Source of the DNA: Pseudonocardiales bacterium
Lineage (GTDB): Bacteria; Actinomycetota; Actinomycetes; Mycobacteriales; Pseudonocardiaceae
Direction of reading: 5' to 3'
Assembly: GCA_019241525.1 (NCBI GenBank)
Contig: JAFAWY010000137.1
Coordinates: 1-63,250 of the forward strand
DNA: 63,250 nucleotides
This document shows, piece by piece, positions 14,715-25,762 of the stretch. Below the pieces are notes generated by a model. It did no database searches and was not told where the DNA came from. It saw only the letters and a program-made list of their open reading frames with translations. Each line of letters opens with the position of its first letter. The first letter of the stretch is position 1. Made by a program: the position numbers and the translations under genes.

Positions 14715-15156
14715 CAGGGTCGTGGTCGTCCGTGGGTGTCGCGGGTCGGGATGTCGTGTTGGCGGAGTGTGGCGAGCACGGTGGTGTGGTCGACGCCGAG
14801 GTGTTGGCTGACTCGGGAGAGGGATCAGCCGAGGTGGTAGAGGTGGATGGCGTCATCGACTTGGTCGGGGGATAGGCCGCGGCGGCGCATGAGCACGTCG
14901 TGTCGGTGAAGGATGTTGCTGACCGTTCGCCGTTCGATGCCGAATTGCGCCCCCAGTTCGTACACGGTTGCTCCGTCCTGGTAACCGGCGATGAGTTCCT
15001 GGACCTGGTCGGCATCGAGTTGCCGTGCCCGGCCGGGTTTCGGTCGGTTGACGGGTGGTGGGCCGGTGTGGTGAGGTCGGGTAGTTTCCGGATGAGGGTC
15101 TCTAGTGCTTCTACCTGGGGTTTTGTGTTGTAGTAAGTTCCCCCAAGGTCCACCAC
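14715..15156 (-). pseudogene. Doubly broken recombinase/HTH protein
   Basis: The 5' part reads [20 protein letters not shown] then [15 protein letters not shown]. After a shift of frame near 15050 the protein continues [20 protein letters not shown], a resolvase-type HTH ([20 protein letters not shown]), and [24 protein letters not shown] at 14825-14827 (complement) then replaces an expected Trp codon, followed by SLSRVSQHLGVDHTTVLATL. Two tandem HTH units resemble the C-terminus of actinomycete serine-recombinase relatives. One frameshift plus one nonsense codon indicate inactivation. Confidence 0.65.
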
Positions 15157-15388
15157 TGTCGGTTTCCTGCGGCGTTCTGTGACGACCGTGTCATTGCGCG
15201 AACCGCTGACCGTGACCAGGACTGGCTATATCAGCGTGATCAGGACAGTGGTGTGGACCACGCCGGACGTGTCTCCACCGCAGCTATCGATCCAAATGCG
15301 CATGGTGCTTGTCAGTACCCGCGAATGCAGTAGCCGCAAGATGCTGCCAGCCGCACTAAGCTGTGATTAATCCTGCATTGAGAAAGCG
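15157..15388. other. Intergenic region
   Basis: No supported gene or obvious repeat. It probably contains the promoter for the heptad-repeat membrane protein. Confidence 0.4.
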
Positions 15389-15865
15389 GTGGTGGAGTTG
15401 GCGAGGACGGATGCTCGGGCCGGGGGAGCTGGGCTGTTCAACGTTGTCAGTGTTGTAGTCCTCATTGTCGGCGTGGTCGTGATCGGTATAGCGGCTGCCC
15501 TACTGGCCCGCACGTTGGCGGCGGCACAGAGCATCGACAAGAAGGCGCAGACTATCGCGACTAACGCTGGCAAGATCAATGTTGCGACTGACCCGGTCGT
15601 CGAGTTGAACCGGACCAACGAGCTTGCATCGTCGATTTTGACCAGTGCTAAGCCACTTCAAGACCTGCTCAACACGACCGACGCCACTGCCCGTGACATC
15701 GCTGGCCTGGCGAAGTCGATCAACTCAACTGCGCAGACCATCAACAACACGGCTGACACCATTAACCACACAGCTGGCACGATCAACCACACGGCTGGCA
15801 CGATCGACCACACGGCTGGCACGATCAACCACACGACAGGCACGATCAACAAGAGCGCGTCGTAG
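15389..15865 (+). CDS. Membrane-anchored heptad-repeat protein
   Basis: 158 aa from GTG 15389 (GTG 15392 is equally possible). One N-terminal transmembrane helix covers about residues 17-43 (LFNVVSVVVLIVGVVVIGIA and on). The rest is a predicted extracellular coiled coil rich in Ala, Thr, Asn and Ile. Residues 117-152 form perfect seven-residue repeats of the type TINHTAG, five in a row, encoded by 21-base tandem repeats. Function unknown; it resembles surface rods or signalling linkers lacking an output domain. It stands alone. Confidence 0.65.
   Translation: MVELARTDARAGGAGLFNVVSVVVLIVGVVVIGIAAALLARTLAAAQSIDKKAQTIATNAGKINVATDPVVELNRTNELASSILTSAKPLQDLLNTTDATARDIAGLAKSINSTAQTINNTADTINHTAGTINHTAGTIDHTAGTINHTTGTINKSAS
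15737..15841 (+). repeat. 21-bp tandem repeat inside a coding region
   Basis: Five consecutive 21-base units with consensus ACGATCAACCACACGGCTGG plus C, coding for TINHTAG. Unit 1 has NNTAD, unit 4 has an Asp codon and unit 5 ends in TTG. Reading frame is preserved, so copy number could vary by slippage without frameshift. This is not a CRISPR array because there are no spacers. Confidence 0.85.
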
Positions 15866-16301
15866 GGCTGGGAGCCACAGGGGCCACGGCGCAAGTCAAA
15901 TATCTAAGCCGCATGCCTTCGGCCAGCTGACTCGGGTAGTGCCGCGCAGTGTGATCGGTCAGTGACCTGGCCTCCAGTGCGTCGCCTGCGGCGTCAGCTG
16001 GTGCTCTGTTTGCGCGGGGACTGCTGTGTGACCGTGAGTAGTCGACTGCTCACTCCTTGACTACAGTGGTCTGGCGATCTAGGCTGGCTTCCCGGTCGGG
16101 GACCGTACCCATCGAGGGGGTCTTCCTGCCCGAATCTTGTATCTGATGCCACTTGACCATGCTCGTGTTTATTCGAACGTTCAGTCGGTACATGGTTTGG
16201 CACCTCCCGCGTGACTGATTGCTGTAGATTATGTCGGCAAACGTGCTCAGTATCGGTTCGGCTCTGTGGGCTGGCATGTCTATCTGGAGAGCCGCAAAAT
16301 G
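15866..16301. other. Intergenic region
   Basis: About 430 bases between the heptad-repeat protein and the DUF6777-like gene. No supported gene on either strand. GGAGA at 16288-16292 belongs to the downstream gene. Confidence 0.45.
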
Positions 16302-17666
16302 AATATTCGCTCGTTGTACGCCCATCGGACGCTGTTGTCCTTACTGGTCGCCGCAGCCCTGGCGGTGGCCTCCCTCACCATCCTGGTAATTCGCCAACAG
16401 GCATCTCATGCGGACGGTCAAGTCTTTCTCCAAGCGGGCGGTAGCGTGGGTCCAAATCCATTTGTTCCCCTCGCGGTCGCACCCCCTGGCGCGCCCGCGG
16501 ACCAGGGCGGTCGCGGTGCGCCTTTGCAGCCGGCGGCCAGTACCGACGACCCGATGCACTGCGATCGTGACAAGCTCGCCTCGTACCTAACCGCCAATCC
16601 GCAAGTGAGTGGCGCGTGGTTGCGCGCGCTCAACTTTGATCGCACGCTGAGCTGGAGCGGCGGCCGCCGACTCGATGTTCAACAGATTCCGTCTTACTTG
16701 CGCGAACTCGCTCCGCGTCGCCTCACAGAGGACCTCGGGGTCACGAATTATCAATTCACCAACGGTGCCGCCCTGGCTGTGCAATCGGTCCTGGAAAAGG
16801 GTACTGCGGTCCTGGTCGACGCCACGGGTATTGCCCGAGTTCGATGCGTATGTGGAAACCCGTTGACGCCTATGGTGCAACTGAAGGTGCAGCCGATTTA
16901 TCGGGGTACGCCATGGCCCAATTTCCAACCTCAACGCGTGGTCGTCACTCAAGGTGGGGTGCCTAGTCAAGGGCAGCCGCCTGCTCGTGCGCCAGTCCAG
17001 CCACAGTCACCGGACCACGATCAGCAGTCGATTCCGCAGCATTGGCATGACCATTCGGCCCAGCCACCGCCGTATGCAGAGCAGCCCGGTCGACCGGATG
17101 AGCCCCCGTACCGGGATGAACACCAGGACCCGGACGAGCCGGGACGCCCTGACGGATCACCACACTGGGGCAAGCCCGGCCCCGACGGGCTGCCGCGGCA
17201 TTACCCCGACTCCCCACGACCCCCCGATCCCCCGCGACGGTCTGAGCAGCCGCATCACGTCCCGGCGCCGGATGTGCCGAAGCATCCGGACGAGACCTCT
17301 ATGCCCGATCGGCCCAAGCACACGGACATGCCGCCTTCGGCTGACAAGGACAAGCCGGCGGATATCCGACCGGCCGGCTCGAATACCGCGGGCCGTCCTG
17401 TACAACATGGTTCGGACCCAGACAGATCGGTGCATCCAGGCAGCCCGGCACGTCCCGGCAGCGGAGCGCATGACAACGACCTACCGCGGGAGCACCCCGG
17501 GCGACAGGACCGTTCTGATAAGCCGGCGCAGAGAGTCGTTGCCGGCTCCCCGGATCAGCGGGTACAGCCCGGAAAAGACAAGCCCGGCAATGAGGACAAC
17601 TTACGGACGCAGCGTACTTCGCGAGGATCTGATACCGGTGCCCATCGGGCTCAAGGGGATCACTGA
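16302..17666 (+). CDS. DUF6777-like secreted/membrane protein with proline-rich tail
   Basis: 454 aa from ATG 16302, preceded by GGAGA; an in-frame GTG is at 16266. An N-terminal hydrophobic segment, LLSLLVAAALAVASLTILVI, is a signal anchor. Residues about 40-210 match the DUF6777 pattern: GPNPFVPLAVAPPG, a Cys in MHCDRDKLASYLTANPQVSG, LRELAPRRLTEDLGVTNYQF, and a C-x-C-GNP element (RVRCVCGNPLTP). The remaining half is disordered, rich in Pro, Asp, His, Gln and Arg. Function unknown; the location is probably outside the membrane. It appears monocistronic. Confidence 0.75.
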   Translation, partial: NIRSLYAHRTLLSLLVAAALAVASLTILVIRQQASHADGQVFLQAGGSVGPNPFVPLAVAPPGAPADQGGRGAPLQPAASTDDPMHCDRDKLASYLTANPQVSGAWLRALNFDRTLSWSGGRRLDVQQIPSYLRELAPRRLTEDLGVTNYQFTNGAALAVQSVLEKGTAVLVDATGIARVRCVCGNPLTPMVQLKVQPIYRGTPWPNFQPQRVVVTQGGVPSQGQPPARAPVQPQSPDHDQQSIPQHWHDHSAQPPPYAEQPGRPDEPPYRDEHQDPDEPGRPDGSPHWGKPGPDGLPRHYPDSPRPPDPPRRSEQPHHVPAPDVPKHPDETSMPDRPKHTDMPPSADKDKPADIRPAGSNTAGRPVQHGSDPDRSVHPGSPARPGSGAHDNDLPREHPGRQDRSDKPAQRVVAGSPDQRVQPGKDKPGNEDNLRTQRTSRGSDTGAHRAQGDH

Positions 17667-17726
17667 AGTCTACCCATTCGAGCACCGCATGTTCATTTTT
17701 TGTTCATCAAGGCGCAGGATTCTTGT

Positions 17727-18071
17727 ATGGTGCTCCTTCACCGCGTTGGCGATGTCGACATTGACGAAGGCAGCGCTGAGCACCACTGCGTCGTTGCGGG
17801 GCGCAAGAGGGACGGCGCGCTGGCCGATGTGTGGAGCGACGCGCAGGCCTATCTCGACGGCTGCTACGTGGCCTACGTGCCGCGCTGTGACTGTGGCTGG
17901 ACCGGGCCGCCGTTTAGCGCAACGCCAAGTGGCTACGCCGCCTGCGAACAGCTCTGGCGGTACAAGCATCTTCAGCCGTTTCTCCGCGCCGCCGATCCAG
18001 CTCGTACGCGCCGTAGACTTGCCGTGGAGATCCAGGGCTGCACCAAGGCGGCTGGTTCGCCAGGGTACTGA
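17727..18071 (+). CDS. Small cysteine-containing hypothetical protein
   Basis: 114 aa from ATG 17727 with AGGA upstream. It contains HHCVVAGRKRDGALADVWSD and AYVPRCDCGWTGPPFSATPS, where CDCGW and the earlier Cys may bind a metal. The tail is basic. The composition and compact central domain look like a genuine actinomycete hypothetical, but I do not recognise a named family. It ends 29 bases before mobA and may be co-transcribed with it. Confidence 0.55.
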   Translation: MVLLHRVGDVDIDEGSAEHHCVVAGRKRDGALADVWSDAQAYLDGCYVAYVPRCDCGWTGPPFSATPSGYAACEQLWRYKHLQPFLRAADPARTRRRLAVEIQGCTKAAGSPGY

Positions 18072-18100
18072 TCAGCAGGCACCGAATTACGATCCAGCAG

Positions 18101-18961
18101 GTGGCTACGCGGGTCGGGCAGGAAGCGGCGGCTGTGGTATTGGCTGGTGGCCGTTCATTACGAATGGGCACGGCTAAGGCCGCTTTGGAATGGCATGGCT
18201 CCACGCTGCTTCGCCGCACTTTGGGCGTACTGGCCCGCGTAGTGGACGGGCCGCTGTTGGTGGTGTGCAGCCGTGACCAGCGCCTACCGAAAATTCCGGC
18301 GCATGTGAAGGTGGTGGAGGATCCCGAGCCGGGACTGGGACCGCTGCAGGGCATCGCGGCCGGCCTGGCCGCGCTTGCTGATCAAGCTCATGCAGCGTTC
18401 ATCTGTTCCACCGACCTACCGTTCCTGCATCCCGCTTTCGTTCGCCGGGTACTGACCGCGCTCACCGATGATTTCGACGTAGTGCTGCCCGTTGCTAGCG
18501 GCTACCCCCAGCCGCTGGCTGCCGCGTACCAGATCACCCTCGGGCCCCTGGTCGCTGAGTTGCTCGCGGCCGGCGAGCGGCGCCTGACGGGACTGTTTCA
18601 CCGGTGCGCCACGCTGCGCATGGACGATGCCACATTGCTGGCAGACCCAGTACTGATGAGGGTGGATCCGGCTCTAGACTCAGTCGCCAACATCAATTTC
18701 CCGGACGAGTACCAAGCCGCCCGGCGACAGCTTGCGCCGCAGATCACCGTGCAGTACAGCGACGCGGGGAGCAACAACGGTTGCGGCACCTCCCGCACCG
18801 TTCGCGCTGCCACATTGTCTGCTGCCGCTGCGGCGGAGGGGCTGGTGTTGCGCAGCCCGCTGATCGCCACGCTCAACGGCGAAACGGTCTGCCTCGACGG
18901 TGATATCCCGTTGGTTACCGGAGACATGGTTGCCTTCAGCTGTGCAGATGCAGGTGGGTGA
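18101..18961 (+). CDS. Molybdenum cofactor guanylyltransferase fused to a MoaD-like domain
   Basis: 286 aa. Residues about 1-205 are a MobA-type nucleotidyltransferase: AVVLAGGRSLRMGTAKAALE nucleotide loop, VVEDPEPGLGPLQGIAAGL, and FICSTDLPFLHP carrying the metal Asp. Residues about 212-286 form a beta-grasp domain (ITVQYSDAG, ATLNGETVCLDGDIPLVTGD, MVAFSCADAGG) ending in the Gly-Gly tail required by MoaD/ThiS sulfur carriers. The fusion would join guanylylation and the sulfur-carrier step of molybdopterin synthesis in one chain. The GTG start at 18101 has only a weak ribosome-binding site. No moaE or moeB is adjacent. Confidence 0.8.
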   Translation: MATRVGQEAAAVVLAGGRSLRMGTAKAALEWHGSTLLRRTLGVLARVVDGPLLVVCSRDQRLPKIPAHVKVVEDPEPGLGPLQGIAAGLAALADQAHAAFICSTDLPFLHPAFVRRVLTALTDDFDVVLPVASGYPQPLAAAYQITLGPLVAELLAAGERRLTGLFHRCATLRMDDATLLADPVLMRVDPALDSVANINFPDEYQAARRQLAPQITVQYSDAGSNNGCGTSRTVRAATLSAAAAAEGLVLRSPLIATLNGETVCLDGDIPLVTGDMVAFSCADAGG

Positions 18962-19126
18962 GATTCGATACCCCGATAGGATCCGTGCATACGCAGAGCA
19001 CGCAGCGCGAATCAGACAAACGCCGCGGTCAAGCTTAAGAAACCTCTTGATCAGGTGTCTTTACTCTTTGTAATCATTCGATACGGAAAGTTGCCATTGC
19101 GTTAACCACCCAGATGGCTTACTTTC
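18962..19126. other. Intergenic region before peptide unit A
   Basis: No gene is supported. The segment is comparatively AT-rich and may hold the promoter of the element A/peptide transcript, but no clear -35/-10 pair could be assigned by eye. Confidence 0.4.
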
Positions 19127-19219
19127 GAATTTGCTTGACCACGGGGAGTAAGGGGGAAGCCAGCTCGGATCATCTTGGGGGTTGCTACCGAGCGGCGGAG
19201 CGGCGGTTTGCAAGCTGCC
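19127..19219 (+). promoter_or_regulatory. Conserved 5' element A (candidate structured leader RNA)
   Basis: This ~93-base segment aligns with 19825-19908. Shared blocks are TTTGCTTGACCACG, GAGTA-GGGGG, CCAGCTCGGAT, GGGGG-TGCT-CCGAG and CAAGCTGCC. Two potential stems are kept in both copies: an outer GCTTG/CAAGC pair and an inner GCTCGG/CCGAG(C/T) hairpin with a G-rich loop. It lies about 155 bases before the first peptide gene. No known riboswitch class was recognised. Confidence 0.6.
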
Positions 19220-19374
19220 GGCGGTGAGACCGGCTTCGCCGGCGCAGGTAACGATGTCTGACGGGGGAATCTCTCGACTGCGTCATGCTCAGGTGGCTAC
19301 GGGCAAATTCGCAGGCTGATCCCAGCCTCTATGGCGTGCATGACTCCTACTCCATCAGCTGAGAAAGGAGCGAC

Positions 19375-19578
19375 ATGAGGGTCTCGGAAATCTTTACGAG
19401 CGGCACCGGACACAATGGTGACTACGAGAGCTGCTCTGGCAATGTCTGCAAGCCTGGCGGGTACTACCCGGACGACGGGCGCTGGACCTACGTCTACCCG
19501 AATGACTACAACTGGGCTGGCGGTGGCTACGGATACGGTTACACCCGCAGCCATGGGCTGGACGGCCTCGTAGGGTAA
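19375..19578 (+). CDS. Gly/Tyr-rich small peptide A
   Basis: 67 aa starting MRVSEIFTSGTG, with AAGGAGCGAC directly before the ATG. It has one cysteine pair in CX4C spacing (C20, C25), then a stretch rich in Gly, Tyr, Trp, Asn and Asp (GGYYPDDGRW, GGGYGYGY), and a short hydrophobic end GLDGLVG. It is a paralogue of the peptide at 20120-20344: same N-terminus, CX4C, Gly/Tyr tail and C-terminal Leu-Gly. No signal peptide or transmembrane segment is visible. A precursor peptide or secreted structural peptide is possible; no modifying enzyme is adjacent, so a RiPP assignment is inference. Confidence 0.75.
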   Translation: MRVSEIFTSGTGHNGDYESCSGNVCKPGGYYPDDGRWTYVYPNDYNWAGGGYGYGYTRSHGLDGLVG

Positions 19579-19584
19579 CGCGCT

Positions 19585-19607
19585 GGCGTCTGCCGCTAGC
19601 AGGCGTC
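19585..19607 (+). terminator. Hairpin after peptide A
   Basis: Nine-base-pair stem GGCGTCTGC (19585-19593) with GCAGGCGTC (19599-19607), including two G-U pairs, loop CGCTA. It begins seven bases after the stop codon. There is no T-run, which is usual for actinomycete terminators. Confidence 0.55.
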
Positions 19608-19704
19608 GGCGACGTATGAGGGTCGCCCACGCGACCTGGCACGGCCAAGATGCCGTGGCCGTCACGGTCGGCAAGCAAGCTGATTGTGCGGACAGTGACG
19701 GCCT

Positions 19705-19739
19705 GCCCGATGGCGGGCGGGGCATGCCCGCCACCGGGC
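19705..19739. other. Long perfect-type hairpin
   Basis: A 14-base stem, 19705-19718 against 19726-19739, pairs at 13 positions around a 7-base loop. It is the strongest inverted repeat between the two peptide units and could be a second terminator or a structured RNA. Confidence 0.5.
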
Positions 19740-19824
19740 TGAGGTCAGGGGCCTCTCCTCACTGTGCGTACCCAACCATGTACCGAGAGTGGCTTATTGC
19801 AATCACTCTCCGCATCCTTTATTT

Positions 19825-19908
19825 TGTGCTTTGCTTGACCACGCAGAGTAGGGGGCCAGCTCGGATACCTAGGGGGATGCTGCCGAGTACAGCGGATTGA
19901 CAAGCTGC
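19825..19908 (+). promoter_or_regulatory. Conserved 5' element B (candidate structured leader RNA)
   Basis: Second copy of the element at 19127-19219, slightly shorter through small gaps. GCTTG and CAAGC, and GCTCGG and CCGAGT, can pair as in copy A. It lies about 210 bases before the second peptide gene. Conservation in two copies across otherwise diverged spacers argues for function, not a chance match. Confidence 0.6.
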
Positions 19909-20119
19909 CTGTGTGTGGTGCTCGGAAGAGTTCGCTAAGACGCTGCATCGCGTCAACGTTTGGGGCGGATTATTTCGCGGACTCGTTCTAGCCGTGTACC
20001 GCACGATCAGATGAGGTCTGCCGACTTCGCAATGTGCCACGGCGGCACATCATGTCCTCGCGTCGGGTCTGGGTTTTTTCCTTGCATGGCTCTGTCCTCG
20101 AGCACGAATAAGGAGCGAC

Positions 20120-20344
20120 ATGAGGATCTCAGAAGTCTTCACCTTGGGCGGCGGCGGCGGTGACAACGGCGCTAGCGTCCCGGGCTACAACTGCAAGCGT
20201 GACGACTGCACCTACGGTTTCTACCCCTACTTCAACGGTTACGACTACGGCCGGGACTACGGCCGCAACCCTTACTACTACGACGGCTACAACTACGGTG
20301 GCTACACCTACAAGGGCCACTACCGGTTGTTGGGACTCTTGTAG
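20120..20344 (+). CDS. Gly/Tyr-rich small peptide B
   Basis: 74 aa starting MRISEVFTLGGGGGDN, preceded by AAGGAGCGAC as in peptide A. The cysteine pair is C25/C30 (CX4C). About half of the remaining residues are Tyr or Gly in motifs such as YDYGRDYGRN and YYYDGYNYGGYTYKG; the C-terminus is hydrophobic (RLLGLL). It lacks a signal peptide. A strong terminator follows, and an ABC exporter starts 133 bases downstream, which makes export plausible but unproven. The unit 5' element, peptide, hairpin is the same as for peptide A. Confidence 0.75.
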   Translation: MRISEVFTLGGGGGDNGASVPGYNCKRDDCTYGFYPYFNGYDYGRDYGRNPYYYDGYNYGGYTYKGHYRLLGLL

Positions 20345-20357
20345 TCGGCAGGTCATT

Positions 20358-20399
20358 GGCGGTGGCCCGGACTCCCGCTAGCGGGTAGGGGCCACCGCC
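20358..20399 (+). terminator. Strong terminator after peptide B
   Basis: Stem GGCGGTGGC (20358-20366) pairs with GCCACCGCC (20391-20399). An inner CCCGCTAGCGGG palindrome forms a second helix on top. It closes the peptide B transcript before the ABC exporter. Confidence 0.7.
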
Positions 20400-20477
20400 T
20401 TGCCGTGTGCGCAATTCAACGTGGCGTCACTATGGCCAGAGTAGAGTCGGCAGCCAGACCGAGAGAGTGGAGCAGCT

Positions 20478-22340
20478 GTGTGGGAAATGCTGCGGTCGTT
20501 GGTGCGTCCGGCGTCGGCTGACGGCGGTCTGGTGGACGCGGCACCGGCGGCGAGCTTGCGGGAGGTCTTCCGGCGGTTTTGGCCTGATGCTCGGCCGTTC
20601 TGGCGGTGGTTGTGGCTCAGCCTAGTGTTGATCATCGTGACACCGCTGGTGGACACCGGTGCGATCTTGCTGTTCAAAGAACTGGTCGACAAGGTATTGG
20701 CGCCGCGAGATTTCTCCGCTTTCCCACCGGTGGCCGCAGCCTTCGTGGGGATCACGCTGCTGGTCGGGGCGTTGACTTTTCTCGGCACGTATCTGGGAGC
20801 GTGGATCGGGGAAAACTTTCTCCACCGCATGCGTACCAGGGTGTTCGCCCACCTGCACAGCCTGTCGGTGAGCTTCTTCGATCGCCGCCCGCTAGGGGAT
20901 CTGCTGTCGAGGCTTATCGGTGATGTGACCGCCATCGAAAGCGTGGTGCTGTCCGGCGTCATCGGGATCATCGCCAACCTGTTGAAGATCCTCGTATTCG
21001 CCACCGTGCTGTTCTTCCTCGATGTACGCCTGGCGTTGGCATCTTTGATTGCGGTCCCGGTGTTCTGGATTGCTGCCCGGGTCTTCGCCCGGCGCATCAA
21101 GATTGCCTCTCGGGAGGTCCGCCGGCGCGCGGGATCGATCGGCGTGGTTGCCGAGGAGAGTCTGGGCAACGCTACCTTGATCCAGGCTTACGGTCGCGAG
21201 AGCGCCGAAGTCGACCGCTTCGCGGCGCAGAGTATCGGCAGCGTCAACGCTGAGCTGGCGGCTACCCGGTTGGGTGCGATGTTCTCCCCGTTCGTCGACC
21301 TGATTCAGGTACTCGGAGTGCTCACGATCCTCGGGGTGGGCATCTGGGAGCTGACCGCCGGTCGCATCACGCTGGGTGGCCTACTGGCTTTCCTGGTGTT
21401 CCTGTCGCAGCTCTACCAGCCGGTGCAGGGGCTGGGTTCGCTATCCACCTCGCTGTTCGCCGCCGCGGCGGCCGCGGAGCGGATCATCGAGTTGCTCGAC
21501 GAGCAACCCACCGTGACCGCGCCCGCCCAACCCCGCGAACTCGGCCCGGTTCGCGGGCAGCTACGCCTGGATCACGTCAGCTTCACTTACCCGCACACTG
21601 ACGCAGTGGTTCTCAACGACGTCAGTTTCACTGCTCACCCTGGTCAGACCACGGCCATCGTGGGCGCCAGCGGCTCGGGCAAGACCACCCTGCTCAAGCT
21701 GCTGCTGCGATTCTACGACCCGACCGCCGGCAAGATCACCCTCGACGGTCATGATCTACGCGAACTGCACCCCGACGAACTGCGCGCCAACATCGCGATC
21801 GTGCTCCAGGAGACCCTGCTACTCGACGGCACCGTCGCCGACAACATTCGAGCCGGTCGGCCTGACGCGAGTGAAGACGAGCTCGTCGCCGCGGCCAAGG
21901 CTGCTGATGCGCACGAGTTCATCACCGCGCTCCCCGACGGCTACCAGACCCGAGTCGGGCAACGCGGTCGGTTGCTGTCCGGCGGGCAACGCCAACGCAT
22001 CGCGATCGCCCGAGCGATGATCCGCGACGCGCCCATCCTATTGCTGGACGAACCCGCTACCGGCCTGGATGCCGATGCCGCCCAGCGGATCCTCGGCCCG
22101 CTACGCCGGCTGATCACCGGGCGCACCACGATCATCATTTCCCATAACCTGCTCGCCGTCACCGATGCCGATCAGATCATCTACATCGAACACGGCCGCA
22201 TCACAGAGACGGGAACTCACGACCAGCTGTTGTTGCGCAACAACAGCTACGCGCACCTCTACCACCTTCATCACCCCACTGACCCGATGCGCGGGCCCAG
22301 CCAGAACGGCCAGTTCGCCGGTACCGGAGCGCAGCCCTGA
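20478..22340 (+). CDS. ABC exporter, fused permease and ATPase
   Basis: 620-aa half-transporter of the MsbA/LmrA type, acting as a dimer at the membrane. The six-helix transmembrane domain spans about residues 30-335. The nucleotide-binding domain has Walker A GASGSGKTT at about 395, signature LSGGQRQR at about 500, Walker B ILLLDEPAT at about 521 and the switch histidine in IIISHN at about 555. The start is GTG 20478 after a GGAG-like site. The nearest upstream genes are the two small peptides, suggesting a peptide or lipid substrate; sequence alone does not decide. No peptidase C39 domain is fused. Confidence 0.88.
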   Translation: MWEMLRSLVRPASADGGLVDAAPAASLREVFRRFWPDARPFWRWLWLSLVLIIVTPLVDTGAILLFKELVDKVLAPRDFSAFPPVAAAFVGITLLVGALTFLGTYLGAWIGENFLHRMRTRVFAHLHSLSVSFFDRRPLGDLLSRLIGDVTAIESVVLSGVIGIIANLLKILVFATVLFFLDVRLALASLIAVPVFWIAARVFARRIKIASREVRRRAGSIGVVAEESLGNATLIQAYGRESAEVDRFAAQSIGSVNAELAATRLGAMFSPFVDLIQVLGVLTILGVGIWELTAGRITLGGLLAFLVFLSQLYQPVQGLGSLSTSLFAAAAAAERIIELLDEQPTVTAPAQPRELGPVRGQLRLDHVSFTYPHTDAVVLNDVSFTAHPGQTTAIVGASGSGKTTLLKLLLRFYDPTAGKITLDGHDLRELHPDELRANIAIVLQETLLLDGTVADNIRAGRPDASEDELVAAAKAADAHEFITALPDGYQTRVGQRGRLLSGGQRQRIAIARAMIRDAPILLLDEPATGLDADAAQRILGPLRRLITGRTTIIISHNLLAVTDADQIIYIEHGRITETGTHDQLLLRNNSYAHLYHLHHPTDPMRGPSQNGQFAGTGAQP

Positions 22341-22355
22341 CCCTGGCCTCTCTCC

Positions 22356-22426
22356 AGACCGCGTTGACGGATGCACACTGGGTTATCTGGCCTGAAAAGC
22401 CATGGCCTGCATCTTCAACGCGGTCT
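22356..22426. other. Large inverted repeat between ABC exporter and hydrolase
   Basis: AGACCGCGTTGA (22356-22367) is the perfect reverse complement of TCAACGCGGTCT (22415-22426). Inside, GATGCA (22370-22375) pairs with TGCATC (22408-22413). The whole forms an 18-bp stem with a small bulge and a loop of about 32 bases. It could be a terminator for the exporter or a small mobile hairpin. Confidence 0.6.
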
Positions 22427-22461
22427 AAGGCGCGTGCGGGGAGTGTGGTGGGATTTACGGC

Positions 22462-23169
22462 ATGGAGAATCCGGTACAGAACGTGACGTTCCCCAGCAAC
22501 GGGGGCACTGCGCATGGGTATCTGGCGCTGCCTCCGAGCGGTCGGGGACCGGGTGTGGTGGTGATCCAGGAGTGGTGGGGGCTGACCAGCCACATCGTTG
22601 ATGTCGCCAACCGGCTGGCTGCCGAGGGATTCGTTGCCCTGGCCCCCGATCTGTACGGCGGTACTACCACGCATGATGCCGATGAGGCCGGCAAGCTCAT
22701 GCAACAACTTCCGGTCGACCAGGCGGCCCGCGACCTGGGCGGCGCGGTCGACTACCTACTTGGACATGAGGCAGTCACGAGCTCGAAGATCGGCGTGGTC
22801 GGCTTTTGCATGGGCGGCGGATTCGTGCTGGTGCTCGCCGCTCAACAGGGCGATAAGATCGGCGCCGCGGTGCCGTTCTATGCAGTCTTCGGCCAGGACT
22901 ACCCGAGTTTTGACAACCTCTCCGCTCCGGTGCTGGGCCACTTCGGTGAGCAGGACGACTTTCAGAGCACTGAGGCGGTGCGCGAGCTGGCGGGGAGCAT
23001 CGAGCGGCAGAGCGGTCGGCGGCCCGACTTCCGGTTCTACCCGGCCGGGCACGCCTTCTTCAACGACGACAACCTGCTCGGCACCTACGATCCGGAGCAG
23101 GCTGGCAAAGCGTGGAACGCGACGGTCAGCTTCCTCCGCGAGCAGCTCGGGGCACCGCCAGCGCAATAA
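22462..23169 (+). CDS. Dienelactone hydrolase family protein
   Basis: 235-aa alpha/beta hydrolase. The nucleophile is Cys116 in GFCMGGG, characteristic of dienelactone hydrolases. The acid lies in HFGEQDDF and the histidine in YPAGHAFFND. VVVIQEWWGLTSHIVDVANR near the N-terminus carries the conserved Glu that pairs with the Cys. Family enzymes open lactone rings in aromatic degradation; no such genes are nearby, so the substrate is open. Probably monocistronic. Confidence 0.88.
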   Translation: MENPVQNVTFPSNGGTAHGYLALPPSGRGPGVVVIQEWWGLTSHIVDVANRLAAEGFVALAPDLYGGTTTHDADEAGKLMQQLPVDQAARDLGGAVDYLLGHEAVTSSKIGVVGFCMGGGFVLVLAAQQGDKIGAAVPFYAVFGQDYPSFDNLSAPVLGHFGEQDDFQSTEAVRELAGSIERQSGRRPDFRFYPAGHAFFNDDNLLGTYDPEQAGKAWNATVSFLREQLGAPPAQ

Positions 23170-23219
23170 GAAGCCCCGGAAGCTGGTTGCGCGGTCCTAG
23201 CCCGTAATGCGCACGGGTG

Positions 23220-23525
23220 TCACAGATTCATGCTGAGGTCGTCCCTGATCCGGCGGGCGAGCGACTCATCCATCAGCAGCCGAGCGACCAGGGCGCGGAT
23301 GACGTCCTGGCCAGTCACCCGAGGTGCACCGATGATCTCGGCGGCGTCGGCGCACCACTGGGTCAGCTCAGTGTGATACGCCGGCGACAGGTCGACGCTG
23401 CGCCGGACAGGTTTGGTGCGGCCGGTTTCTGCCCAGTGCAGGTGCTGGGGGGCCAGGTCGCGGTACCGGTTCTGCGGCTGCGCTGCGCGGGGTTGGTCCG
23501 AAGCGTGGTTGGCTGCGTTCCTCAT
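23220..23525 (-). CDS. Small putative ribbon-helix-helix protein
   Basis: 101 aa from ATG 23525, chosen because GGGAGG lies upstream; the frame is open to 23636. The N-terminus is polar (NHASDQPRAAQPQNRYRDL). A strand-helix-helix-like segment, RRSVDLSPAYHTELTQWC, then GQDVIRALVARLLMDESLAR fits a ribbon-helix-helix or partition-accessory fold. This is a structural guess from pattern. The palindromic site at 23641-23661 lies just upstream and may be its operator. Confidence 0.6.
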   Translation of the reverse strand: MRNAANHASDQPRAAQPQNRYRDLAPQHLHWAETGRTKPVRRSVDLSPAYHTELTQWCADAAEIIGAPRVTGQDVIRALVARLLMDESLARRIRDDLSMNL

Positions 23526-23640
23526 CAAGACCTCCCTACGGACACCGTTCGTTCCGGGAAGGGAAGTGGTTCGCCGGATCGTTAGCTCCGCGTTCCTGCC
23601 AGCCTGTAGGGCGTCCGCCGGATGAGTTAAGATCACTTAC

Positions 23641-23661
23641 ACTATCACTGGCGGTGATAGT
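23641..23661. promoter_or_regulatory. Palindromic operator
   Basis: ACTATCAC and GTGATAGT are perfect 8-base half-sites separated by TGGCG. It lies in the divergent space between the RHH-like gene (start 23525) and the Rieske gene (start 23729). The core resembles a lambda-type TATCAC-N5-GTGATA operator, though no phage gene is nearby. Confidence 0.65.
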
Positions 23662-23728
23662 ATTTGCCCGCATCGGGGCCAGCATCCACCCCGGAGTGTT
23701 TTATGCCCCGGCTGCCAAGGAGGGATGA

Positions 23729-24211
23729 ATGACCCACGATCCCCAAACCGGATCGGAGCTGACTCGGCGCGCCGTCGTGGCCGGTACTGGGCTTCTGGCC
23801 GTGTCCGCTGCGCTCGCTGCGTGCTCCAACAATCAGCAGCCGGCTGCGGCGCCTGGGTCGCAAGCCTCCTCGCCAACCACCCAGCCGCCGCCCGAAACCT
23901 CGACGTCGGCCGCTCCTCCGGGTGCACTGCTGACAACCACTGACAACATCCCCGCCGGTGGCGGCAAGGTGTTTGCCGCCGACAAGGTCGTCGTCACCCA
24001 GCCGACGTCAGGAACGTTCAAAGCATTCTCGGCTATCTGCACCCACCAGGGCTGCACGGTGAACAAAGTCGCTGATGGCACCATCGACTGCCCGTGCCAT
24101 GGCAGCAAGTTCGCCATCGCGGATGGCTCGGTCGTGCATGGGCCGGCGCAGCGATCACTCGCACCCCGTCAAATCGTCGTCTCGGGCGATGAGGTGCTAC
24201 TCCAGGACTGA
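23729..24211 (+). CDS. Rieske 2Fe-2S lipoprotein
   Basis: 160 aa with a strong AAGGAGGG site. The N-terminus has a twin-arginine signal (TRRAVVAGTGLLAVSAALAA) leading to a lipobox-like LAAC. A Pro/Ser/Thr-rich linker follows at about 30-70. The Rieske cluster motifs are CTHQGC and CPCHGSKF, with the C-x-H ligand pairs. It is an exported electron carrier, related to the small ubiquinol-cytochrome-c-type Rieske proteins of actinomycetes. The partner is not visible in the window. Confidence 0.88.
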   Translation: MTHDPQTGSELTRRAVVAGTGLLAVSAALAACSNNQQPAAAPGSQASSPTTQPPPETSTSAAPPGALLTTTDNIPAGGGKVFAADKVVVTQPTSGTFKAFSAICTHQGCTVNKVADGTIDCPCHGSKFAIADGSVVHGPAQRSLAPRQIVVSGDEVLLQD

Positions 24212-24217
24212 GCGCGC

Positions 24218-25762
24218 TCAGCGCCAGGAGGGTAGCCACAGTTCGGCGTTCCAGTGCTCTGGAGTGATCGAGCCGCCAGTGAGGATCGGCCAGAGCCAGA
24301 CGAAGTTCGCCACCGCCAGCCCGACATACAGCGAGACCACCAGTAACCCAGTTCCGCGCCGCTCCGTGCCGTCGGCGGACCGGCCAAGGATCTCGCCGAG
24401 CACCAGCGTCACGGCGATCACCAGAAACGGCGCCACCGGCGTCATGTAGAAGAAGTACATCTGGCGGTGGATGTTGGAAAACCAGGGCAGCCAGCCGGCG
24501 GCATAGCCGGTGAGCGCAGCGGCGTAGCGCCAATCGGCCCCGCTGGCGGCCCGCCACAGTGCCCAGGCCAGCACGGGCACGGTGAGCCACCACAGCGCTG
24601 GCGTGCCGATGAGCATCACCGTCGCCACGCAGTCTTGCCGGCCGCAACCTGGAGCTCCCGCCCCGGACTGGTAGTAGTAGAGCATCGGCCGCAGCCCCAT
24701 CGGCCAGCTCCACGGCTTGGATTCCCACGGGTGCGGATGGGCGGGCGTCACCAGGTTTTCATGGAAGCGCAGCACCGCAGCGCTGTAGTACCACAGCCCC
24801 CGCAGCGCGGCTGGGACGAAGGAGAACGGTCCGCCGGCACCGATCTGGTTGCCTACCACGTGCCGGTCGATCGCGGTCTCGCTGCCGAACCAAGCCCACC
24901 ACGTCGCCAGGTAGGTGAGGATCGGCACCGCCGCGAGCGCCCAGGACACCGGCCCGACATCCCGAGCCAGGGTGCCGGCCCAGGGCCGGTCCACCCCGGC
25001 GCGACGCCGAGCGCAGGCGTCCCATACCACGCTCATCACGGCGAACGCGACAAGGTAGTACACGCCGGACCACTTCGTGCCGCAAGCCAGCCCAAGCAGC
25101 ACCCCGGCGCCAAAGCGCCACCAGCGCGCCCCCAGCCGCGGGCCGAAGTCGGTATCTCGGATACGACCTTCCCGCACCACCATGGCCAGCCGCTGGTGCA
25201 CCTGTTCCCGGTCGACGACCAGGCAGCCGAACGCGGCAAGCACGAACATTGCCAGGAAGATGTCCAGCATCCCGATCCGGGACTGCACCTGGCTGACGCC
25301 GTCGACGATGAGCAAAACCCCGGCAATACCGCCCAGCAGGGTCGACCGGGTCATCCGCCGGACGATCCGCACGATCAGCAGCACGCATACCGTGCCGGAC
25401 AGCGCGGCGGACAGCCGCCATCCCCAGCCGTCATAGCCCATCACCGCCTCGCCCAGCGCGATGAGCTGCTTGCCCAGCGGTGGGTGCACGACGAGCTCGT
25501 AGCCGGGGTTGTCCTCCACCCCGCCGTTGCGCAGCATCTGCCACGCTTGCGGCGCGTAGTGCTTCTCGTCGAATACCGGGGTGCCCTGATCGGTGGGGAG
25601 GCCCAGATTCCACAGCCGCACCAGGCCGCCGATCAGGGTCAGGATCAGCGTCACCATCCAGCTGCGCAGCCCGTCGGTTAGCGGGGATGGGAGCAGCCGC
25701 GGCAGCGGACCGGCCGGCCTGGTCCATGCCGCCGGTGTGCCGGTATTCGCTGCCCTGACCAC
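24218..25762 (-). CDS. pmt: Protein O-mannosyltransferase
   Basis: GT39 dolichyl/polyprenyl-phosphate-mannose-protein mannosyltransferase, syntenic with mycobacterial Rv1002c beside rsmI. About 514 aa from GTG 25762 (GTG 25768 also possible); the frame runs to 25999 only by overlapping rsmI. The first loop has the catalytic acid motif PVFDEKHYAPQAW, then VVHPPLGKQLI. About ten hydrophobic helices follow, with the conserved end NAELWLPSW. It uses a lipid-linked mannose to modify secreted proteins across the membrane. Its stop is six bases beyond the convergent Rieske stop. Confidence 0.9.
   Translation of the reverse strand: MVRAANTGTPAAWTRPAGPLPRLLPSPLTDGLRSWMVTLILTLIGGLVRLWNLGLPTDQGTPVFDEKHYAPQAWQMLRNGGVEDNPGYELVVHPPLGKQLIALGEAVMGYDGWGWRLSAALSGTVCVLLIVRIVRRMTRSTLLGGIAGVLLIVDGVSQVQSRIGMLDIFLAMFVLAAFGCLVVDREQVHQRLAMVVREGRIRDTDFGPRLGARWWRFGAGVLLGLACGTKWSGVYYLVAFAVMSVVWDACARRRAGVDRPWAGTLARDVGPVSWALAAVPILTYLATWWAWFGSETAIDRHVVGNQIGAGGPFSFVPAALRGLWYYSAAVLRFHENLVTPAHPHPWESKPWSWPMGLRPMLYYYQSGAGAPGCGRQDCVATVMLIGTPALWWLTVPVLAWALWRAASGADWRYAAALTGYAAGWLPWFSNIHRQMYFFYMTPVAPFLVIAVTLVLGEILGRSADGTERRGTGLLVVSLYVGLAVANFVWLWPILTGGSITPEHWNAELWLPSWR

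Follow-up and report, generated by a model that had tools for sequence, protein, structure and literature searches.

The window analysed here, a stretch of 63,250 nucleotides from a Pseudonocardiales bacterium, contains two small open reading frames whose products begin alike, which raises the question of whether these frames are genes and, if so, what kind of protein they encode. The two ORFs belong to a superfamily of translated proteins, 48 to 77 aa long, that has so far been found in one genus only. The preliminary description had reported frames of 67 and 74 aa with a common N-terminus, a Tyr/Gly/Asn-rich middle and a Leu/Gly-rich end, each with a sequence motif ahead of the ATG and a strong hairpin after the stop, and all of these features were found again: both frames are present with ATG starts, and the ribosome-binding sites and hairpins are listed below, with the hairpin z values referring to 200 dinucleotide shuffles.

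19097..19125, + strand: putative promoter of gene 1 (TTGCGT, 17 nt, TACTTT), read by eye from the window and the relatives' alignment
19130..19219, + strand: conserved 5' element of unit 1 (core 19136-19156), 70 of 79 positions as in unit 2, core exact
19364..19370, + strand: strong Shine-Dalgarno sequence of gene 1, AAAGGAG, from reading the sequence
19375..19578, + strand: gene 1, tagged small protein of 67 aa; an ORF with relatives in the genus and a dN/dS of 0.53 against its nearest relative, L011
19579..19615, + strand: terminator-like hairpin 3' of gene 1, z -2.39 for 19579-19650
19797..19825, + strand: putative promoter of gene 2 (TTGCAA, 17 nt, TATTTT), read in the same way as that of gene 1
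19830..19909, + strand: conserved 5' element of unit 2 (core 19836-19856), from the alignment to unit 1, core with 3 mismatches
20110..20115, + strand: strong Shine-Dalgarno sequence of gene 2, AAGGAG, from reading the sequence
20120..20344, + strand: gene 2, tagged small protein of 74 aa; an ORF with relatives in the genus and a dN/dS of 0.09 against L011
20346..20405, + strand: terminator-like hairpin 3' of gene 2, z -3.81 for 20345-20410
20478..22340, + strand: MsbA-like ABC exporter of 620 aa with ABC_membrane and ABC_tran domains and a close copy at a second locus, a possible partner

The DNA between the two frames had been described as different, which does not hold for the upstream regions: 19130-19219 and 19830-19909 are identical at 70 of 79 aligned positions, with a local alignment score of 71 against a maximum of 35 in 300 base shuffles. 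Because this upstream DNA is common to both units, the whole unit of upstream element, ORF and hairpin appears to have been duplicated and then to have diverged. The CX4C cysteine pair was confirmed in both window genes and failed as a family trait, since it occurs in 7 of the 67 members read; the pair is not conserved, and CX4C was rejected as the defining character.

Members at other loci resemble the window genes mainly at the N-terminus, and the tag itself was therefore searched. The family-defining feature is a seven-residue N-terminal tag, MR[IV]x[ED][IV]F, often continued by one residue, then L or M, and then G. Homologues beyond the window, whose absence would have counted against the preliminary description, were found in 10 of the 11 genomes of the genus by profile (A2, built from 8 rows, and A3, built from 19 rows, alike) and in all 11 by tag pattern. 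A loose DNA pattern of the tag gave 83 sites in these 11 genomes against 2 for the reversed pattern, with 2 to 16 sites per genome and 11 in that of the window. The stricter pattern, in which a hydrophobic residue and Gly were added to the loose one, gave 37 sites in all 11 genomes and none when reversed, no site in 286 genomes from 45 other genera of the window's family, and, in the class sample, 2 sites in 393 other genomes, whose ORFs of 37 and 23 aa are unlike the members. A profile built from the two window sequences matched 6 of the 297 genomes of the window's family, every one in the window's genus. Outside the genus, profile A3 matched 0 of the 286 genomes in 45 other genera of the family at E up to 0.01 and 0 of the 393 other genomes of the class sample at E up to 0.001, the window's own genome being the sole match of 394. 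These searches demonstrate a family marked by its tag and restricted, among the sampled genomes, to a single genus; the preliminary description of a small-peptide family of no nameable class was thus supported, and the family is larger than was visible from the window. A phage or plasmid origin was rejected, as tblastn of gene 2 alone against phages and plasmids gave no match and none of 49 stretches found in viral contigs with the tag and Shine-Dalgarno pattern was member-like on reading.

Protein-level selection was also demonstrated. Among pairs of members above 60% identity, dN/dS was below 1 in 38 of 39 (1.05 in the remaining pair), pairs that are not independent and were chosen by a filter favouring low dN, and the members are therefore translated. 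Synonymous variation was seen at codons 3 to 7, where the residue types are kept. Chance ORFs were rejected on the 83 tag sites against 2 for the reversed pattern and by the dN/dS values.

The 67 members read from fetched loci were those that passed the tag filter at 45-80 aa in the window, L038-L057, L163-L202 and L233-L240. Part of the 83 loose sites was fetched (left out were, for example, G080:C215, C242 and C349 and G154:C140 and C307), and some of the 83 read MQxxQVF or resemble chance. Also outside the 67 are the G080:C34 pair (L011), G154:C195 and G102:C46, which come from short loci only, L183 and L186 on account of length, and the profile match G168:C42:16816-17001, which failed the filter.

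The cores of these members are of low complexity and Gly-rich, with Tyr, Trp, His, Arg or Asp, and are chemically very different from one another: Tyr/Gly in the window, WGGWGHG runs in L163 and L172, His-rich in L166 and L170, Arg/Asp/Trp in L165 and L171, and Gly/Cys in L175 and L200. By eye, the C-terminus is a short hydrophobic stretch such as GLLGI in many members and ends in Cys or WY in others, and a Sec-type hydrophobic signal was not seen by eye in the members. From residue 10 onward, Gly makes up 27%, Tyr 10.4% and Val 0.7% of the residues, against 9.5%, 1.8% and 8.9% in 380 neighbouring genes; the median fraction of Tyr, Phe, Trp, Arg and His over the 67 members is 0.34. In the charge-hydropathy plot, 55 of the 67 members fall on the disordered side of the line and 12 do not, and AlphaFold2 gave gene 1 a mean pLDDT of 40.6, a weak sign of disorder given the 4-row alignment. 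On its biased composition and predicted disorder (charge-hydropathy and this pLDDT value), the family can be placed among the intrinsically disordered low-complexity proteins. A hairpin with z below -2 (base shuffles) follows the stop codon in 51 of the 67 members. The family remains unnamed, and its members are probably floppy proteins with a fixed start and very different repetitive middles.

Two kinds of upstream element were found. Of the 67 members, 30 have the genus-specific 5' element upstream by the pattern used, and L040 was scored as element-less yet has the core with 3 mismatches. With 3 mismatches allowed, 48 copies of the core were counted in the genus and 3 of the reversed pattern; at up to 2 mismatches, 32 of the 33 core sites lie upstream of a member. 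In the relatives' alignment, read by eye, TTGNNN, 17 nt and TANNTT stand directly ahead of the core; the arrangement would be a promoter, and the core would then lie at the transcript start. Among the 37 element-less members, 12 have a TTCC-GGAA-like palindrome within 90 nt ahead of the ATG, whereas it was found in 0 of the 30 members with the element and in 5 of 382 control genes; the p value of about 1.6e-10 is optimistic, as the pattern was picked after the sequences had been viewed, and one of the 12 matches (L171) is loose. A second search pattern gave 14 of 37 element-less members against 3 of 382 control genes. The presence of two such elements suggests that the genes form two sets under separate control. 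Palindromes of this kind stand 24-51 nt before the ATG in L181, L188, L195, L200 and others, sometimes two in tandem.

Several minor features of the 5' element were recorded. One copy, in G048:C373 (L234:951), has no member downstream and is perhaps a decayed unit. One possible reading of the core is a mini-ORF that ends in GAC-CAC-GGR-GAG-stop (19131-19150 and 19831-19850 in the window); its last codon is a stop in all 29 sequences under a site pattern that allowed TRR only, with TGG permitted but unseen; an in-frame ATG, GTG, TTG or CTG lies upstream in 20 of the 29. Upstream of the members in L042, L043 and L052, an 18-nt in-frame tandem copy was seen, with GTG, GTG or ATG upstream. A riboswitch or structured leader was considered and found no support: no consensus fold emerged for the element (23 of 29 sequences used), the two window leaders showed no folding advantage over shuffles (z +1.33 and +1.53), and no Rfam match was found within 15000-25000.

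Searches against known families returned little. Pfam and NCBIfam each gave one match to a single member of the 67 (E 0.047 and 0.0073, respectively), both judged to be chance, PHROGs and PADLOC matched 0 of 67 members at E 0.01, which places the family with neither phage nor anti-phage proteins, and no model of the family was found in these four libraries. No member matched PDB sequences at E 1, and no paper was recognised as dealing with this family in a literature search that mostly did not cover subscription papers.

Of the genes around the members, the ABC exporter of the window recurs at the same locus in seven genomes (window, L011, L047, L055, L072, L179 and L201) and is missing there in G138, G168 and G191. 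Its second-locus copy, 79-83% identical, lies directly downstream of Trp-Gly-type members at distances of 191 nt (L195) and 95 nt (L199), and genome G154 has the exporter at both loci (L199 and L201). Against a coupling of exporter and members stand these three genomes, the lack of such an exporter alongside most members read, and the choice of the loci around members. An MFS transporter recurs near L163, L172, L189, L180 and L187 (54-90% identity); MFS genes are common. By reading, the window locus lies in relatives among formate-dehydrogenase-like and molybdenum-cofactor genes, with Molybdopterin, Complex1_51K and MoeA matches near members at L042, L047, L052 and L179, and the window itself has a MobA-like gene (18101-18961) together with DLH, PMT and RsmI genes. 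At other loci the members have as neighbours a Ferritin_2 pair, DUF4147/MOFRL together with 2-hydroxyacid dehydrogenase genes, or TetR, HlyD, MFS and FAD genes. In addition, a DUF6777 frame at 16266-17666 of the window overlaps a second long frame, 16954-18177, which has no Pfam or NCBIfam match.

For the function of the family, we infer as the most likely reading, at a rough probability of 0.38, that these are tagged, disordered small proteins that act through many weak contacts and are perhaps exported. The N-terminal tag would serve as a common docking or export signal, and the disordered core could work as it would in a matrix, coat or condensate, by numerous weak contacts of aromatic, Arg and His residues. 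Export of the window pair may run through the ABC transporter encoded directly downstream. This reading draws on the tag, present in 11 of 11 genus genomes and, by the stricter pattern, in 0 of 286 others of the family, on dN/dS, composition and disorder, on the 5' element, and on the exporter at two loci; against it stand the 12 members off the disordered side and an exporter seen beside members at two loci only and missing from the window's locus in three genomes. Bacillus-type small spore coat proteins are Tyr/His/Gly-rich and of low complexity; they share with this family small size and Tyr/Gly/His-rich composition, with no Pfam or NCBIfam sequence match. The high glycine-tyrosine proteins of skin appendages are small Gly/Tyr-rich structural proteins of several compositional classes, eukaryotic and unrelated, and offer the family an analogy only. 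Possible, and put forward tentatively, is a modular system in which one seven-residue tag routes chemically different disordered cores through a common exporter or scaffold while two gene sets choose the mix, either a bacterial analogue of a silk or keratin-associated toolkit or a new leader/core peptide class with an unusually short leader.

The main rival, although unlikely, is that the members are dispersed RiPP precursors in which the tag acts as a very short leader for one promiscuous enzyme encoded elsewhere and the Tyr/Trp/His/Cys-rich cores are modified and exported. In favour of this, the N-terminus is conserved at many loci whose cores differ widely, Gly-Gly is frequent past the tag, and exporters adjoin some members. 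The FxLD lanthipeptide model TIGR04363 gave a weak likeness to one of 8 members (E 0.14) and matched 0 of 67 at E 0.05, so the members were not assigned to it. Against the RiPP route, C39 peptidase was found in 0 of 11 genus genomes (8 of 14 control genomes were positive in the same search), YcaO in 4 of 11 and LanC-like proteins in 7 of 11, and G002, G048, G102 and G154 are without all three yet hold members; the sole LanC-like match in the window's genome is weak (36 bits). These counts place the family with neither the YcaO/LanC-type RiPPs nor the C39-exported bacteriocins and weigh against the common RiPP and bacteriocin routes. Furthermore, no maturation enzyme was recognised among the Pfam-scanned neighbours, a part of all neighbours, and in most close pairs the cores of orthologues show conservation, not hypervariability. 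The nearest logic is that of the prochlorosins (ProcA/SyncA precursors and ProcM), for which many precursor genes per genome with one leader and varied cores are described (PMC10783134). The prochlorosin leader is about 60 aa long and works with a dedicated lanthionine synthetase, whereas the tag here spans 7 to 11 aa and LanC-like proteins are not universal.

An improbable role is that of metal-binding or metal-storage peptides, in which His-, Cys- and Asp-rich cores would buffer iron or copper. His-rich and Cys-rich members do exist, one locus adjoins the Ferritin_2 pair, and an HlyD/CusB-like neighbour was found; each of the window members, however, contains just 2 Cys, His numbers 2 in one and 1 in the other, and 7 of the 67 members contain no Cys. 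An iron-box-like site with 2 of 19 mismatches to the IdeR/DtxR consensus lies 159 nt upstream of the Trp-Gly member of G000 (L163, G000:C56), but with as many as 6 mismatches allowed, the search for such boxes found them at no more than 2 of the 67 members. In L172, the counterpart from G080, the site has 6 mismatches to this consensus.

Still less probably, the members are unmodified peptides with an antimicrobial or signalling role that dedicated exporters secrete. Small size, multiple copies and the ABC and MFS transporters recurring alongside some members would fit, but 38 of the 67 members are net negative, unlike cationic antimicrobials, the C39 peptidase is missing from all 11 genomes, and no immunity gene was recognised by eye. 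Double-glycine bacteriocins resemble the family in the Gly-Gly past a short leader in many members and in the ABC exporter adjoining in the window; they differ in having C39, whereas the exporter here carries no C39 domain and Gly-Gly is not strict. That the 5' element and its mini-ORF matter as a regulatory RNA or leader peptide, the small protein being incidental, is very improbable, as strong conservation of the element and the possible mini-ORF in 20 of 29 are set against protein-level selection, the 37 of 67 members without the element by the pattern used, and the fold and Rfam results given above.

In this small-protein design, kept within one genus, the tag is fixed, the cores are interchangeable and an upstream element of its own goes with it. 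Should the tag direct sorting or modification, it would open up a new route of export or maturation and provide a portable tag, and if the cores form matrices or condensates, they would provide a natural series in which low-complexity sequence rules can be tested in bacteria. The 5' element provides a DNA handle for finding further members.

Further observations concern codon usage and one core type. Codon 2 is AGG in 41 of the 67 members, a codon that is rare nearby (631 of 12,227 Arg codons), and the stop codon is TAG in 40 of 67 members versus 89 of 380 neighbouring genes. The Trp/Arg/Asp-rich type, found in G168 (L052:12498-12656), G000 (L165), G080 (L171) and G191 (L194), has a WRNHWR or RRCWY end and a different upstream region, and in G168 the distance to a Tyr/Gly member is about 3 kb.
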